This document shows positions 41,432-53,446 of a stretch of DNA of 53,535 nt, one piece after another. Below the pieces are notes generated by a model, which saw nothing but the letters and a program-made list of their open reading frames with translations, searched no databases and was not told where the DNA came from. The position numbers and the translations under genes were made by a program. Every line of letters starts with the position of its first letter. The stretch's first letter is position 1. Source of the DNA: Heminiphilus faecis. GTDB lineage: Bacteria > Bacteroidota > Bacteroidia > Bacteroidales > Muribaculaceae. Location: contig NZ_VSMC01000023.1 of the NCBI RefSeq assembly GCF_008728965.1, positions 1 to 53,535 on the forward strand, given 5' to 3'.

Positions 41432-41516
41432 GGAGAGGTGGCAGAGTGGTCGATTGCGGCGGTCTTGAAAACCGTTGAGGGTCACACCTCCGGGGGTTCG
41501 AATCCCTCTCTCTCCG
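41432..41516 (+). tRNA. tRNA-Ser (anticodon UGA)
   Basis: A class II tRNA of 85 bases: acceptor GGAGAGG pairs with TCTCTCC (with one G-U pair), anticodon stem-loop GCGGT-CTTGAAA-ACCGT gives the anticodon TGA (reads UCN, serine), a long variable arm follows (TGAGGGTCACACCTC), and the T-arm is GGGGG-TTCGAAT-CCCTC. The CCA end is not encoded. The 3' end of the gene is the attachment site of the integrated element. Confidence 0.93.
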
Positions 41517-41517
41517 C
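41495..41517 (+). other. Left attachment site (attL core)
   Basis: The 3' end of the tRNA gene, GGTTCG-AATC-CCTCTCTCTCCGC, is repeated at 53235-53257 with four differing bases in the middle. The identical 13-base part CCTCTCTCTCCGC (41505-41517 and 53245-53257) is the probable crossover core. The offset is 11,740 bases. Confidence 0.8.
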
Positions 41518-41549: not shown

Positions 41550-41594
41550 GAACACCCAATTTTACACCCAAGAATGTAAAATTGGGTGTTTTTG
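41550..41594. terminator. Bidirectional terminator next to tRNA-Ser
   Basis: A 16-base perfect inverted repeat, AACACCCAATTTTACA (41551-41566) with its complement at 41575-41590, and then T-run, form a strong terminator. Read from the tRNA side it can end the tRNA transcript, whose own terminator was pushed to 53293; read from the cargo side the complement can end the cargo operon. The hairpin arms contain ACACCCAA copies that are also candidate integrase arm sites. Confidence 0.7.
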
Positions 41595-41788: not shown

Positions 41789-42241
41789 CTATTTCCTTTT
41801 GCTGAATTTCTCTTTTGCATATTCATAAGATTCGAGGATATATGGCTTCAATGATTCAAAAGTCGTTTCGGATGGGCTCAAAGCGCAAATCCAACCCATC
41901 CACGCATAGACCGGATGCGGCATAATGACATTCTTTGCACTAAAGTTATATGGCATATCCACAATACTGCCTTTGCATGGACGTTTGGGCAATTCTCCGA
42001 ACAAAGTGCGGAATGTCTGTTTTCGGACACCTATATTCACTCGCCACGCTCCCTCACGGTCTAGTCGGGAAGCTCGGTCATTGTCACCATCCTTTTCTTT
42101 GATTGTCAAGACATATACGCCACGTTTCAGTACGCTACTGGGATTATAGAAAATACCACGCTCGCCCCAGCTACGAACTTCGACAACTCCTTCAAGGTTG
42201 TCAAGGCAATATTTCAGAATGTTGTCAGGTGTAATAGCCAT
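41789..42241 (-). CDS. DUF6194-like protein
   Basis: The 150-residue product resembles DUF6194 proteins by pattern (VVEVRSWGERGIFYNPSS, ASRLDREGAWRVNIGVRKQT, YAWMGWICALSPS). No catalytic role is established for the family; MmcQ/YjbR-like proteins look similar. It is the last gene of the six-gene cargo operon, 7 bases after the 42249 gene. Confidence 0.55.
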   Translation of the reverse strand: MAITPDNILKYCLDNLEGVVEVRSWGERGIFYNPSSVLKRGVYVLTIKEKDGDNDRASRLDREGAWRVNIGVRKQTFRTLFGELPKRPCKGSIVDMPYNFSAKNVIMPHPVYAWMGWICALSPSETTFESLKPYILESYEYAKEKFSKRK

Positions 42242-42248
42242 ATTGTAA

Positions 42249-42848
42249 TCATGATTCTTTAATTAACCGGTGCATCGTTGCAATATCCTCCGATGCCATT
42301 TCAAATTTTGATTTCTCAATCAGGATATTTTGCCCCGTCATTATATAGGATGGAAGGATACGAATACCGTTGTATAAAATCTCGGTATTGCGCAATTTAT
42401 AGGTAGATATGCTTGGGACAGCATTCTTCCCGGTCGCCTTCTTGCTTATCATATTAAAGGCTTTCTTTGCCACATCCCCCATAAGCATAATGACCCTGAC
42501 ATTGGGAAACAATGCAAGTTCTCTTTCCAGATAAGGCAGATTTTCCTCTATGTTCTCTTTTGAAACGGCATATTCGGTTTTGGGCATCTTAACAGCGTTG
42601 GTGATGTAAATCCCTTTGTTCAGGATATCCGGTGCGGAATTCACCTCTATCCCGGCTTTTCGGAACAATGGAATTGTCGTTGACATATATGCGGCATCCG
42701 GCTTTCCATAGAAATCATCTTCCGGGCATGAGGGGACAACCTCATTTATCATGATTGCCCGTATGATTTCCGGATTAACCTCTACATTGTTGAAGTGCAT
42801 ATCTGTTTCCCTTTCGGATAATCGCCGTAGTTGTTCCTCGATATTCAT
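42249..42848 (-). CDS. Uracil-DNA glycosylase-like protein
   Basis: The 199-residue product has the superfamily pattern IMINEVVPSCPEDDFYG near the N-terminus (a substrate-pocket-like stretch), a middle segment ITNAVKMPKTE, a central VRVIMLMGDVAKKAF strand-helix and ILPSYIMTG near the end, where the HPS/catalytic histidine loop would be (no His is seen there). It may repair or bind DNA or cleave a nucleoside. It belongs to the cargo operon, 4 bases after the tautomerase. Confidence 0.6.
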   Translation of the reverse strand: MNIEEQLRRLSERETDMHFNNVEVNPEIIRAIMINEVVPSCPEDDFYGKPDAAYMSTTIPLFRKAGIEVNSAPDILNKGIYITNAVKMPKTEYAVSKENIEENLPYLERELALFPNVRVIMLMGDVAKKAFNMISKKATGKNAVPSISTYKLRNTEILYNGIRILPSYIMTGQNILIEKSKFEMASEDIATMHRLIKES

Positions 42849-43059: not shown

Positions 43060-43629
43060 TTATAATTTTAATTTAGACAGAATTAGAGCCATGTTCTGAC
43101 CAAGATTGCGCATATTGGCAATTCCCTCGTCATCTTTAAGGACATCGCCAATTTCTCGCCCATAAACCATGTTCCAATATGTCGAGCCTATGACAATCAT
43201 CTCTTTATTGAGAAAGAAATGATTCATAGTGTCAACGGCTGTCATCCCCCCGGCACGACGAACGGCGGCAACTGCCACGCCCAATTTATGTTTCAATATT
43301 CCCGGATTGACAGCAGCGACAACGCCACCTCTGTCCAACAATGCTTTCATTCGAGAGGAAACATCTGCTGAATAAACCGGCGAACCGAGAATTATCCCGT
43401 CAGCTCTAACCATTTTGCTAAATACATCGGAAAAACCGTCTTTGCGGAATACACAATTACCTTTACCTTTACAGGCAAAACAAGCACGGCATGGCTCTAT
43501 ATCGACATCGGCCAATTGGATAAACTCGGTTTCAATACCTCTCTTATTCAGTTCCTCAAATATCGTGCGGATTATGATAGCTGTATTACCATCTTTCCGT
43601 GAGCTGCCGTTAATTCCAATTACTTTCAT
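43060..43629 (-). CDS. Flavodoxin-fold FMN reductase / iron-sulfur flavoprotein
   Basis: The 189-residue product has the FMN phosphate loop GINGSSRKDGNTA, a cysteine cluster (CRACFACKGKGNCVF) of the compact Fe-S flavoprotein type and the flavin-contact stretch GIILGSPVYSADVSSRMKAL. It probably reduces quinones or other small molecules with NAD(P)H. It overlaps the acetyltransferase gene by 4 bases (ATGA). Confidence 0.8.
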   Translation of the reverse strand: MKVIGINGSSRKDGNTAIIIRTIFEELNKRGIETEFIQLADVDIEPCRACFACKGKGNCVFRKDGFSDVFSKMVRADGIILGSPVYSADVSSRMKALLDRGGVVAAVNPGILKHKLGVAVAAVRRAGGMTAVDTMNHFFLNKEMIVIGSTYWNMVYGREIGDVLKDDEGIANMRNLGQNMALILSKLKL

Positions 43630-44141
43630 AGTCCTTTGTATTGTTCCATTTCAATGCAATTCCAAGTTTCGCCCAAGCAAGAATAGCTTTCTGTTGTTGG
43701 AACAATCACGCGCCTGAATCCGACAGACTTATAGCAATGGATGGCTGACGGATTATTTTCAAAGACACCGAGTGATACTTTCGTAGCACCAAGCGTCTCA
43801 AAAGCATATTTGACTGCCATTGAAACAAGAGTTTTACCAAAACCTTGACCACGTTTTGAATCATCGACAATGACGAATCCCAAGCGTTGTTCCGATGAAT
43901 CATCTGCCGGAGTGCGCAGGGTGATATATCCCACAATGTTATTGCCATTCAACATTGTCAGGGCGCGTTGACTTTGTCCGTCAATATACCGCTCGTGATA
44001 GATATTCATATCTTCTGGTGTGACCGGGTAACACTCATATCTGTCAGCGCACCATTGGCGCATAAGATATTCGTTTTTTAGCCAAGTAGTAATTACATTG
44101 GCATCTGTGGGCTGATATGGTCTAAGACTAAGGCGCATCAT
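43626..44141 (-). CDS. GNAT-family acetyltransferase
   Basis: The 171-residue product has the GNAT acetyl-CoA loop KRGQGFGKTLVSMAVKYAFE (pattern R/Q-x-x-G-x-G/A), preceded by LGFVIVDDS and followed by SLGVFENNPSAIHCYKSVGF. It resembles RimJ/RimL-type enzymes that acetylate proteins or antibiotics; the substrate is unknown. It shares one base with the 44141 gene end. Confidence 0.85.
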   Translation of the reverse strand: MMRLSLRPYQPTDANVITTWLKNEYLMRQWCADRYECYPVTPEDMNIYHERYIDGQSQRALTMLNGNNIVGYITLRTPADDSSEQRLGFVIVDDSKRGQGFGKTLVSMAVKYAFETLGATKVSLGVFENNPSAIHCYKSVGFRRVIVPTTESYSCLGETWNCIEMEQYKGL

Positions 44142-44704
44142 TATAGAATTGTTTTCAACTCTTCATTGCAAAACATTGTCGGGGTAAATTCCACAATCTG
44201 ATAGTTGGCAATGTCGTTGATGTGGAACGGATCTTCGGAAATAATAGCATCAACCGCTTCGCGGTTGTTGGCTTTTATCATTATCACGCCACCAATGCGA
44301 GGGATCTGTGGCCCAGATGTTATGAAATCTCCGATGGCATAATGTTTGGCGAGATATTCACGGTGCGCACTCAGATAGTTATCAACCTCGCTCAACGGCT
44401 TTTTGTATGTGAGAATTGCAATAAACATAACGAGTCTATTTTTCCAGCGTTTAAGGTGAGGGAAGAATTGACGCATCATGTCTTTAGCCTGTTCCTGTGT
44501 CAAGTTCTGTCCTGACTGTTTGTTTATCTCATCAGTGAATTGGGCGCAGTGGTCAATCATCTGCTCCATAGTCATATCCTGCGCAAACTTGCCATCTTTG
44601 TAGCAGTAGATGCAATAATCTTCATTGAGTGTGCCATCGGTATTCGTACCGAGGATTTCGTTTGTTAGCGGCATTCCGCAGCTTTGACAGAATTTTTGTT
44701 CCAT
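44141..44704 (-). CDS. Zinc-ribbon and YCII-domain fusion protein
   Basis: From the ATG at 44704 (MEQKFCQSCGMPL) the product has 187 residues in two parts. The N-terminal part is a small zinc ribbon with CQSC and YCIYC pairs, followed by a helix pair. The C-terminal part (from about residue 90) is a YCII-related domain with KKPLSEVDNYLSAHREYLAK and IGGVIMIKANNREAVDAIIS, FHINDIANYQIVEFTP. A start 17 codons upstream would add only MYLITYPVGLMGEKEND; the chosen ATG follows AAAAGGAAAA. It is the first gene of the cargo operon and follows a structured leader of about 250 bases. Confidence 0.75.
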   Translation of the reverse strand: MEQKFCQSCGMPLTNEILGTNTDGTLNEDYCIYCYKDGKFAQDMTMEQMIDHCAQFTDEINKQSGQNLTQEQAKDMMRQFFPHLKRWKNRLVMFIAILTYKKPLSEVDNYLSAHREYLAKHYAIGDFITSGPQIPRIGGVIMIKANNREAVDAIISEDPFHINDIANYQIVEFTPTMFCNEELKTIL

Positions 44705-44779
44705 ATCGTTTTCCTTTTCGCCCATCAGTCCAACAGGGTAGGTTATTAAATACAAAAGCGTGGACTACCTATGTCAATC

Positions 44780-44902
44780 TAACTTGACGGCCCTGAGAAA
44801 GCCTATGATGCAGATACAACGATAGCAGCCCACGCTATATGCGTGAGAACCACTATGCTATCTCTTGCATCAAATTTGAAAGGCTCTCAGGTTTTCAAGT
44901 TA
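44780..44902 (-). ncRNA. Structured leader of the cargo operon
   Basis: In the RNA of the minus strand a long nested hairpin of about 123 bases can form. Its pairs are TAACTTGA/TCAAGTTA (outermost), CCTGAG/CTCAGG with AGGC/GCCT, TGATGCA/TGCATCA, GATAGCA/TGCTATC and CACGC/GCGTG at the tip, all in order. A tiny open frame (ATG CTC ATC TTG TAA, 44914-44900) ends on the first bases of the outermost stem. The first cargo gene begins 76 bases later. It could be an attenuator, a riboswitch or a recombination site. No known class is recognised. Confidence 0.6.
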
Positions 44903-44962
44903 CAAGATGAGCATAACGCTTCTTTTTCTTATGTCTTGGAAAGAGTTGCCCCTATCCGAATG

Positions 44963-44970
44963 CAAAATTA
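44963..44970 (-). promoter_or_regulatory. -7 box of the cargo operon
   Basis: TAATTTTG on the minus strand fits TAnnTTTG; no good -33 element is seen. If it is used, the transcript begins near 44957 and the structured leader lies between it and the first cargo gene. Confidence 0.4.
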
Positions 44971-45007
44971 GTTATTTTATTGATGTTTTGCATTATATAG
45001 AGCGGAA

Positions 45008-46411
45008 TTATAGCTTGAATCCTCTACTTTTTCTTGGCTCTTCCGCTGATTGTCGTAAACCTTGCCGGAGTTTCTCCCATTGCTCTTTGAACCATTCGCC
45101 TATCGGTTGCCTGTTTATTGTAAGCACCAATTTATTATTATCAACCGAACTTTTCTCAATCTTGAAAATATCGTTCTTTATGTCAAACTTTCGTCTATGC
45201 TCTTCGGAATAGATTTTCCCATTGCATCTGATTGCTTCTTTTTTTGTCAAAAGATTGTTTACCATATCTTTGGTAAATCCGATGGCATAGCAGAATTTTT
45301 CCATTCTAAACATCTCTTTGAGTAAAGGGAACCAGTTGAACGCTTTTTCAAGAATGGTGTTCAATCGTGATATTTCCTTGTCTTTGATTTCAAGCTCTTG
45401 ATTATGTATTCCTTGTAGGTTACGAATCTGCTTGCCGTGCTGTTCCTGCATTTGTTGCATCTTGGCTTTTAATTCATCAATACCCTTGTCACGCTTGGCA
45501 ATTTCATGACGTAAATTCTCATTGGTTTGTTCCAAATCTTTCAATTTTCCGCTTCCGAAAAGAGAACCGACACCGCTTGCTATGGCTGTGGCTGCATCGG
45601 TAGCTGCGCTTTTGAGTTTGTCGGTGCGTATTTCCGATTTTACCTGTTTGAGTTCTTGCTCAGCAAGAGTTACCTGCTGCTTCTTGTGCCTTTGTGTTTC
45701 CTCTATACGTTGCAGTTCGGCTTTCTGTTTCTTTATGATGAAATCGTTACGTTCCAGATGTTCCTTGCCTGTTTCGGTTTTAGATTGTCCTCGTTCCATC
45801 AGGAGAATGTCAGAAGCCAAACTTTGCATTTCGGTCATATCCTCGTCATTGAGTTTACAGCTTTTTCCTGTATCGTGGTTCATCCAATCGAAAACGATAT
45901 GAGCGTGATAATTCGGCTTGAACCACTTTCCATCAATTTGGAAACTCTCTCTGTCTTCAGCTTCGGGTTGTCCGCTCAGCCAATGTCCTTCATCTTTGTG
46001 CAGGAAGATTTGCAGCGGAGTAATACCCCAGCGTTGTTTGCACTCCTCGCCAAATTTATGCACATCTGCCAATGTGGTGTCCGCTCTGATGAGCAACACC
46101 CCCTCACGGATAGGTGAACACCCTGCCACCTTGATGATTTTTCCGTTCTTGCCTTTGCGTTCACGTTCTTTCTCCTGCATGGCACGTCCGGTCTTTTCCT
46201 TGACCATCCGTTTGATGTTGTCGTAATGTGTCCGCAATTCGGTAGTGCCGAAGTTAGGATTTACCCACTGCTCGTTATCGGTGGAAAGTTTGGAAACGAC
46301 ATAGATTCTGGACTCTCCGATGTTGCGTATGTACTCGGCAGTCCTTCGGTTGTGTGCCTCGCTCGATGCGATGTTGCAAGGCTTGATATGTATGCTTGAT
46401 TTTGTTGCCAT
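45008..46411 (-). CDS. MobV-type relaxase
   Basis: Relaxases nick the transferred strand at oriT. The 467-residue protein has the Pre/MobV family features: an N-terminal domain (ICNIASSEAHN-like, with SRIYVV), an acidic segment (LFLHKDEGHWLSG-like: LQIFLHKDEGHWLSG) and the metal site NYHAHIVFDWMN (HxH). From about residue 215 a long coiled coil (KKQKAELQRIEETQRHKKQQ, ENLRHEIAKRDKGIDELKA) follows, with a small basic C-terminal part. It ends about 30 bases from the start of the oriT-like hairpin region upstream. Confidence 0.88.
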   Translation of the reverse strand: MATKSSIHIKPCNIASSEAHNRRTAEYIRNIGESRIYVVSKLSTDNEQWVNPNFGTTELRTHYDNIKRMVKEKTGRAMQEKERERKGKNGKIIKVAGCSPIREGVLLIRADTTLADVHKFGEECKQRWGITPLQIFLHKDEGHWLSGQPEAEDRESFQIDGKWFKPNYHAHIVFDWMNHDTGKSCKLNDEDMTEMQSLASDILLMERGQSKTETGKEHLERNDFIIKKQKAELQRIEETQRHKKQQVTLAEQELKQVKSEIRTDKLKSAATDAATAIASGVGSLFGSGKLKDLEQTNENLRHEIAKRDKGIDELKAKMQQMQEQHGKQIRNLQGIHNQELEIKDKEISRLNTILEKAFNWFPLLKEMFRMEKFCYAIGFTKDMVNNLLTKKEAIRCNGKIYSEEHRRKFDIKNDIFKIEKSSVDNNKLVLTINRQPIGEWFKEQWEKLRQGLRQSAEEPRKSRGFKL

Positions 46412-53234: not shown

Positions 53235-53257
53235 GGTTCGGGAGCCTCTCTCTCCGC
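53235..53257 (+). other. Right attachment site (attR core)
   Basis: GGTTCG-GGAG-CCTCTCTCTCCGC repeats the tRNA-Ser 3' end except for four bases in what would be the T-arm. The 13-base core matches exactly. It lies 150 bases upstream of the integrase start. Confidence 0.8.
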
Positions 53258-53374: not shown

Positions 53375-53446
53375 TTTGACCCTTTTGGCCAAACAGAATT
53401 TACCCACCTTGGCCATAATATGATTGACCCTTTTGGCCCAAATAAC
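53375..53446. repeat. 24-base tandem repeats (three copies)
   Basis: Units at 53375, 53399 and 53423 begin TTTGACCCTTTTGGCC, TTTACCCACCTTGGCC and ATTGACCCTTTTGGCC, with a strict 24-base period. The next 24 bases (ATTAACCGCTTAAC...) may be a degenerate fourth copy. A reading frame on the plus strand (53276-53515) turns this into an eight-residue repeat (FDPFGQTE-like), but it is probably not a protein gene. The remaining 280 bases of the window hold no other recognisable feature. Confidence 0.6.

Follow-up and report, generated by a model that had tools for sequence, protein, structure and literature searches.

Comparison across the Bacteroidota leads us to propose that the leader of a cargo operon in Heminiphilus faecis, a member of an RNA family outside Rfam 15, probably functions as a conditional transcription terminator, that is, an attenuator. 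The leader lies on the minus strand of contig NZ_VSMC01000023.1, of which positions 1 to 53,535 were analyzed as a single stretch (the window). Its central strand, C, would pair either with the preceding strand B in a long hairpin or with the following strand D in a terminator-like helix, and an earlier strand, A, would compete for B. We regard it as near certain that the leader represents a real, widespread and structured RNA family. As judged from sequence, comparison establishes the long hairpin, the C:D pairing in divergent homologues, the pairing of D with a downstream hairpin (P7), the promoter and a spacing to the start codon that hardly varies. Termination at C:D, the identity of the default state and the factor that selects between the states are inferred.

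Organization of the leader and its operon

On the minus strand of the window, 44720-44970 comprises, in this order, a -7 box, a hairpin at the start site, a nested-repeat hairpin of 119 nt and a pseudoknotted hairpin (all leader coordinates refer to this strand). The -7 box TAATTTTG (TAnnTTTG; 44963-44970), read directly from the sequence, begins at 44970. The start-site hairpin GGATAGGGGCAACTCTTTCC (44938-44957) was recognized from its sequence and predicted fold and, by eye, is retained with altered stems in many other copies. A small hairpin, AAGC-GTTAT-GCTC (44909-44921), forms three pairs in the window copy and overlaps strand A (44901-44916), which is predicted to pair with B in the nascent transcript; the AAGC:GCUU pairing of this small hairpin is complete in eight of nine divergent homologues. 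The mini-frame ATG CTC ATC TTG TAA (MLIL and stop; 44900-44914), also read directly, coincides with strand A.

The long hairpin (119 nt, 44782-44900), identified by fold and covariation, consists of five nested repeats: the outer stem, CCTGAGAGCC/GGCTTTCTCAGG, GATGCA/TGCATC, GATAGC/GCTATC and TCACGC/GCGTGGG. Strand B (44841-44871), placed by duplex comparison and sequence, belongs to its 5′ arm, and strand C (44807-44836), common to the rival helices B:C and C:D, to its 3′ arm. Strand D (44757-44775; GACATAGGTAGTCCACGC plus T) has three potential partners, namely C, the loop of P7, and the 5′ sequence GAAGCGT (44916-44922), which shares the first bases of the small hairpin and whose pairing with D, called P2, shows a two-sided change in one of seven pairs. 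The U-rich tract TTTTGTATTT (44748-44757) comes directly after D. Hairpin P7 (44720-44739) ends 15 nt ahead of the first cargo gene, which starts at 44704; TGGACT in its loop and AGTCCA in strand D pair to form a pseudoknot.

The initial annotation had described a structured leader of five nested inverted repeats between a -7 box and the first cargo gene, as well as a Met-Leu-Ile-Leu mini-gene ending on the outer stem. The sequence bears out both points, with the last base of the mini-frame (44900) also opening the outer stem; the hairpin itself also stands, but its length is 119 nt (44900-44782) rather than about 123 bases. The start-site hairpin, the downstream pseudoknot hairpin and two further pairings rivaling the long hairpin extend that description. 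The fold of the 276-nt leader has a predicted energy of -81.8 kcal/mol (z -3.2); 200 dinucleotide-shuffled sequences averaged -66.7 (sd 4.7), and one of them was as good.

The first cargo gene encodes a protein with Zn_ribbon_2 and YCII matches (44141-44704) and is accompanied by genes for a GNAT acetyltransferase (43626-44141), an NADPH-dependent FMN reductase (43060-43629), a uracil-DNA-glycosylase superfamily protein (42249-42848) and a DUF6194 protein (41789-42241), all on the minus strand and assigned by Pfam match. Upstream of the leader, a minus-strand gene without a Pfam match (45008-46411) occupies the place that mobV holds in a related element (L003), and its position suggests a mobV-like role. 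A 13-bp direct repeat, CCTCTCTCTCCGC, is found at 41505-41517, overlapping the 3′ end of a tRNA (RF00005, 41432-41516), and at 53245-53257, about 100 bp past the integrase; the two copies probably delimit an element of about 11.75 kb. Just after the tRNA, 41551-41590 holds a perfect 16-bp inverted repeat with an 8-nt loop. Beyond the integrase, an 18-bp direct repeat, TTGACCCTTTTGGCC(A/C)AA, occurs at 53376-53393 and 53424-53441, 48 bp apart.

Covariation and strand conservation in the long hairpin

The long hairpin was evaluated in an alignment of 33 copies (33 of the 36 listed references, near-duplicates omitted; L009 and L021 had been dropped earlier), which gave stronger evidence than the folding energy. 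Standard pairs filled 98.8% of 1249 pair cells, compared with 38-41% when the partners were slid. Two-sided changes occurred in 10 of 38 pairs (5.6 in shuffled alignments; 0/500 as high) and in 83 cells (26.3 shuffled), and the covariation score was 0.249 compared with 0.145 (0/500); because the copies are related, the shuffle counts here and below overstate significance, and the scored structure is that of RNAalifold from the same alignment, which biases the scores in its favor. The number of further pair types in the long hairpin showed no excess (37 compared with 36.1 shuffled, 180/500 as high). Among the copies, the stem CGTAGGAAA/TTTCCTACG alternates with CCTGAGAAA/TTTCTCAGG. The long hairpin thus contains the covarying pairs on which the initial annotation had made its reading depend. 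Over 34 pairs of the long fold in the 33 copies, G-U combinations filled 128 cells and A-C combinations filled 5, and this large excess indicates that the gene-sense RNA strand is what is conserved.

Competing pairings and the U-rich tract

Strand D is complementary to C, the 3′ arm of the long hairpin, and strand A, ahead of the hairpin, is complementary to B, the 5′ arm. Nine divergent homologues (L041-L049) come from the same class, outside the order Bacteroidales, and a best-duplex search found long A:B, B:C and C:D helices in every one of them. Over the 12 pairs of C:D in these nine, all 103 of 103 cells were standard and four pairs change on both sides. The C:D score, calculated for a structure taken from one of the nine rows, was 0.343 compared with 0.215 after shuffling (0/500), and 36-57% of cells were paired when slid. 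Across 103 copies, C:D had a mean of 8.8 contiguous pairs, or 12.0 allowing one bulge, with matched changes in L004, L020 and L026.

Duplex energies of each copy's own strands were compared with those of strands from other copies in the nine divergent rows and 94 others (of 106 rows; L053, L054 and L096 were omitted). A similarity filter reduced 130 copies to 97, with L009, L055, L166 and rows containing N left out beforehand. In the nine divergent homologues, own and other-copy partners gave -13.5 and -9.5 for A:B, -23.9 and -20.5 for B:C, -25.9 and -19.5 for C:D, and -12.2 and -9.5 for D:P7. The advantage of own partners was reached in 0 or 1 of 2000 permutations for each pairing in this set and in 0/2000 for each in the 94 other rows; in the stem E1:E2, own strands also outperformed other-copy strands in both sets. 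Among the non-partner controls, A:D was low in the 94 rows (0/500) by a small difference (-8.4 compared with -8.0). The other controls gave, per 500 permutations, 12 and 17 for A:P7, 30 and 51 for C:P7, 37 for A:C, 36 for B:P7, 44 for A:D and 53 for B:D.

A second set comprised 20 newly fetched copies, of which 18 were scored and 17 permuted (L196, L200 and L201 omitted). In these 17, B:C and E1:E2 held (0/5000 each), as did D:P7 (14/5000); C:D was weak, with 154/5000 permutations as low, and A:B was not supported as co-varying (726/5000 as low; own partner better in 8/17). The control A:D gave 0/5000 in this set, in which the segments as cut contain both sides of the outer stem. Nine of the 17 copies come from one genome and are alike in the strands concerned, so the test may be limited.

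The eight bases after D contain a mean of 5.1 T, compared with a background of 31%. Of the 18 new copies scored, 15 have runs of U5-7, and two genomes supply 12 of the 15; runs of U6-7 are found in copies from genomes G134 and G130, and the window copy has only UUUU, followed by G. When folded up to the end of B, the predicted nascent RNA forms A:B in the window copy and in three copies. The minimum-energy fold of the complete window copy contains the long hairpin, at -81.7 kcal/mol compared with -71.5 kcal/mol when C:D is enforced, loop-loop pairing being uncounted. In three copies followed as growing predicted transcripts, C:D never won.

Placement between promoter and gene

Of the 138 copies whose upstream sequence was long enough, 106 have a TAnnTTTG box 40-44 nt ahead of the core. 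On the other side, the first ATG frame of 45 or more codons begins 40-56 nt past the core in 86 of 140 (median 47). The leader is thus placed between promoter and start codon, as would be an attenuator. An inverted repeat, TCCGTGAT...ATCACGGA, surrounds the promoter upstream of the -7 box in L003, L022, L029 and L143, and in this subgroup it is a possible operator.

The genes behind the leaders are diverse. The 96 first proteins scanned, out of 131 listed, match 90 Pfam families, the commonest of which (cNMP_binding) occurs in six, and these downstream genes have no common function pointing to a signal. Single cases include ErmF, the MUN beta-lactamase (MUN-1), DarT and DUF6088, and the beginnings of many other downstream proteins resemble, by eye, those of secreted proteins or lipoproteins. 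Among the families listed by name (25 of 90 and 25 of 209), resistance genes are represented by ErmF and one beta-lactamase, and the rest are unrelated. With downstream genes so unrelated, the antibiotic-specific sensor that the initial annotation had entertained is unlikely. A full leader copy precedes the ErmF gene at L143:225-393. The upstream neighbors also vary: 82 proteins were scanned (of 97 listed), 7 of them Mob_Pre relaxases, and we accordingly rejected a link with mobilization genes only.

Distribution of the family

At gathering score, no Rfam 15 family covered the leader or occurred in 14 further loci (best weak match, E 2.5), in agreement with the earlier view of a control leader without a matching class. 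The two Rfam 15 matches of the window, a tRNA and an S4 leader, are located outside the leader. We found no description of the leader family in the titles and abstract openings of the open-access literature; an earlier unnamed listing in supplements is possible.

By DNA similarity, the leader sequence is present at two places in its own genome, window copy included, and in seven plasmid records and one phage record. The second copy in this genome (L002, contig C35) stands before an unrelated gene and has an ATG frame open for 54 codons through the leader. The family was found in 86 of 198 related genomes, own included. A first covariance model, R1, gave matches in 22 of 41 relatives (own included) and in 11 of 395 genomes of the phylum. 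A second model, R2, was derived from divergent copies and built partly from the phylum finds of R1; it gave matches in 53 of the 395 phylum genomes (own included), of which at least 10 contributed sequences to R2, and the genomes of named loci may add to these. The covariance-model search across Bacteroidales genomes envisaged at the outset was productive, with R2 matches in 56 of 149 genomes of the order (own included) and as many as 18 per genome. Matches of both models near the threshold were counted without individual inspection, and a weak match can be a shadow cast by the reverse strand. Scanning named genomes for a sequence pattern returned at least 118 stretches, and the 80 matches listed are Bacteroidales by name, among them Bacteroides, Parabacteroides, Phocaeicola, Alistipes and Muribaculaceae; the pattern is also present in 10 contigs of a viral collection.

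One genome, G134, has 18 matches (contigs L184-L192), many of them lying no more than a few hundred bases from a contig end, as would be expected if neighboring repeats had broken the assembly. At each of L234-L240, two leader copies lie within about 2 kb of each other, in tandem or divergent, and several have a small accessory gene close behind each copy; in L234, two similar genes each begin about 48 nt behind their own leader.

Discussion

We provide a putative mechanism for conditional termination by the leader. In state I, A would pair with B and C with D, and C:D, abutting the U-rich tract, is the presumed intrinsic terminator; here A:B would be the element that keeps B from C. In state II, B:C would form within the long hairpin as an antiterminator, C:D would be precluded and polymerase would proceed into the gene, with D predicted to be held by the 5′ end through P2. 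P7 would be produced only by read-through, and the pairing of its loop with D could lock the open state. A ribosome occupying the mini-frame in the Bacteroidales would mask A, favoring B:C and hence the open state. With the complete window leader predicted to favor B:C by about 10 kcal/mol (loop-loop pairing uncounted) and C:D never winning in the growing transcripts, energy alone should make the open state the default, and closing would then need speed, a ligand, a protein or a stabilized A:B.

Other readings of the leader have to be weighed against this one. A post-transcriptional role is rather unlikely: the long hairpin and the P7 pseudoknot would govern how translation starts or how stable the mRNA is, without C:D being a terminator. 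This would suit the predicted stability of the long hairpin and the position of P7 and its pseudoknot a short way ahead of the start codon, but it leaves unexplained why C:D is retained beside B:C and why a U tract, U6-7 in other lineages, is there at all. We also think it unlikely that the switch is ribosome-coupled by trp-type logic, in which a ribosome translating the short frame, or stalled on it, covers A and frees B to pair with C, allowing expression of the operon. Frame and strand A do coincide, and among the 134 of 149 copies tallied, 129 have an ATG at the mini-frame site, 118 of these 129 have a stop within nine codons and 56 encode MLIL. However, the stop moves, 11 of the 129 frames continue for 12 to 57 codons, and the nucleotides of the mini-frame would be conserved for pairing in any case. 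Moreover, none of the nine divergent homologues has an ATG at the aligned site (in L044 it lies six bases further on, in a frame without a stop at the usual places), and they nevertheless keep A:B, B:C and C:D. The mini-frame is therefore too poorly conserved to be the general trigger. We rejected leader-peptide conservation as a general mechanism, and the initial suggestion that ribosome position decides folding is not supported as a general rule for the four-codon gene; among the 134 copies, with 118 of 129 frames short, the mini-frame may still have a role.

If the leader were an independent small RNA, terminated at the U tract and active in trans, with only an incidental gene following, this would account for its own promoter and terminator-like end. 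We consider such an RNA improbable, since a same-strand start codon follows at a near-constant distance (40-56 nt in 86/140) and D co-varies with P7, a hairpin located past the U tract. Highly improbable is a DNA element, whether a recombination site, a transposon end or a cassette hotspot, with the hairpin acting as single-stranded DNA. The leader is indeed quasi-palindromic, 24 of 124 model matches corresponding to a copy read on its reverse strand; some copies form close pairs, and core alleles move between flanks. The window leader (L001) and L013, for example, have flanks that are 94-98% identical and core halves of 81% and 61% identity, and L001 and L010 have core halves of 100% and 93% with an upstream identity of 47-59%. 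As these mosaics indicate, leaders exchange alleles, but homologous exchange between repeated leaders would account for this. The 128 G-U compared with 5 A-C cells, the spacing to promoter and start codon, and the diverse upstream neighbors all argue against a DNA element. On strand asymmetry and spacing, we rejected a DNA-end or transposon explanation as the main reading; the leader is not merely the duplicated DNA end of a mobile element, which would have counted against the initial annotation. Conditional termination remains the reading that we prefer.

Trp-type attenuators consist of successive strands that form competing 1:2, 2:3 and 3:4 pairings, with a U tract after 3:4, and they lie between promoter and gene. 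The leader resembles them in having consecutive strands in competing pairings, in its U tract, which immediately follows the presumed terminator stem (UUUU alone in the window copy), and in its placement between promoter and gene. Its conserved helices B:C and C:D share C and are mutually exclusive, C:D being weak in the second set. Unlike trp-type attenuators, it has no generally conserved leader peptide, it has a pseudoknot past the presumed terminator, and a single family stands before unrelated genes. Antibiotic-inducible attenuators of the ermK kind have a leader in which terminator and antiterminator compete (PMC5418344). The present family has such a rivalry and one copy (L143) preceding ErmF, but no conserved stalling peptide was seen. 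The tetQ leader of CTnDOT from Bacteroides is classed in the same source as translational control (PMC5418344), whereas transcriptional attenuation is proposed here; compared by description only, both are structured leaders of mobile elements, that of tetQ from Bacteroides.

The copies have neither a conserved short frame of the trp, erm and tetQ kind nor the shared downstream pathway expected of a metabolite riboswitch (96 proteins, 90 Pfam families, the commonest in six). Therefore, we file the leader as a new attenuator-type RNA family and not as a member of the tetQ or erm group or as a metabolite riboswitch. A 2021 catalogue (PMC8040213) presents HMP2_4078 and HMP2_4205 as palindromic candidate structured RNAs, mostly from Bacteroidetes, of 109 and 132 bp, and HMP2_4205 as a predicted Rho-independent terminator. 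Palindromic and from Bacteroidetes, these two resemble the leader family, with which they were compared by description only, and they may or may not be the same family. We regard the leader as representing a new RNA family and a known kind of device.

More tentatively, we speculate that the copies may all belong to a single family of four-strand switches, spread across the phylum and equipped with a read-through lock, and serve as a shared, exchangeable module that gates unrelated accessory or acquired genes by one physiological signal. If the proposed mechanism is right, many Bacteroidota genomes would carry copies of one undescribed RNA regulator of cargo genes, including some resistance and putative defense genes, and the family would show how newly acquired genes become plugged into common control.
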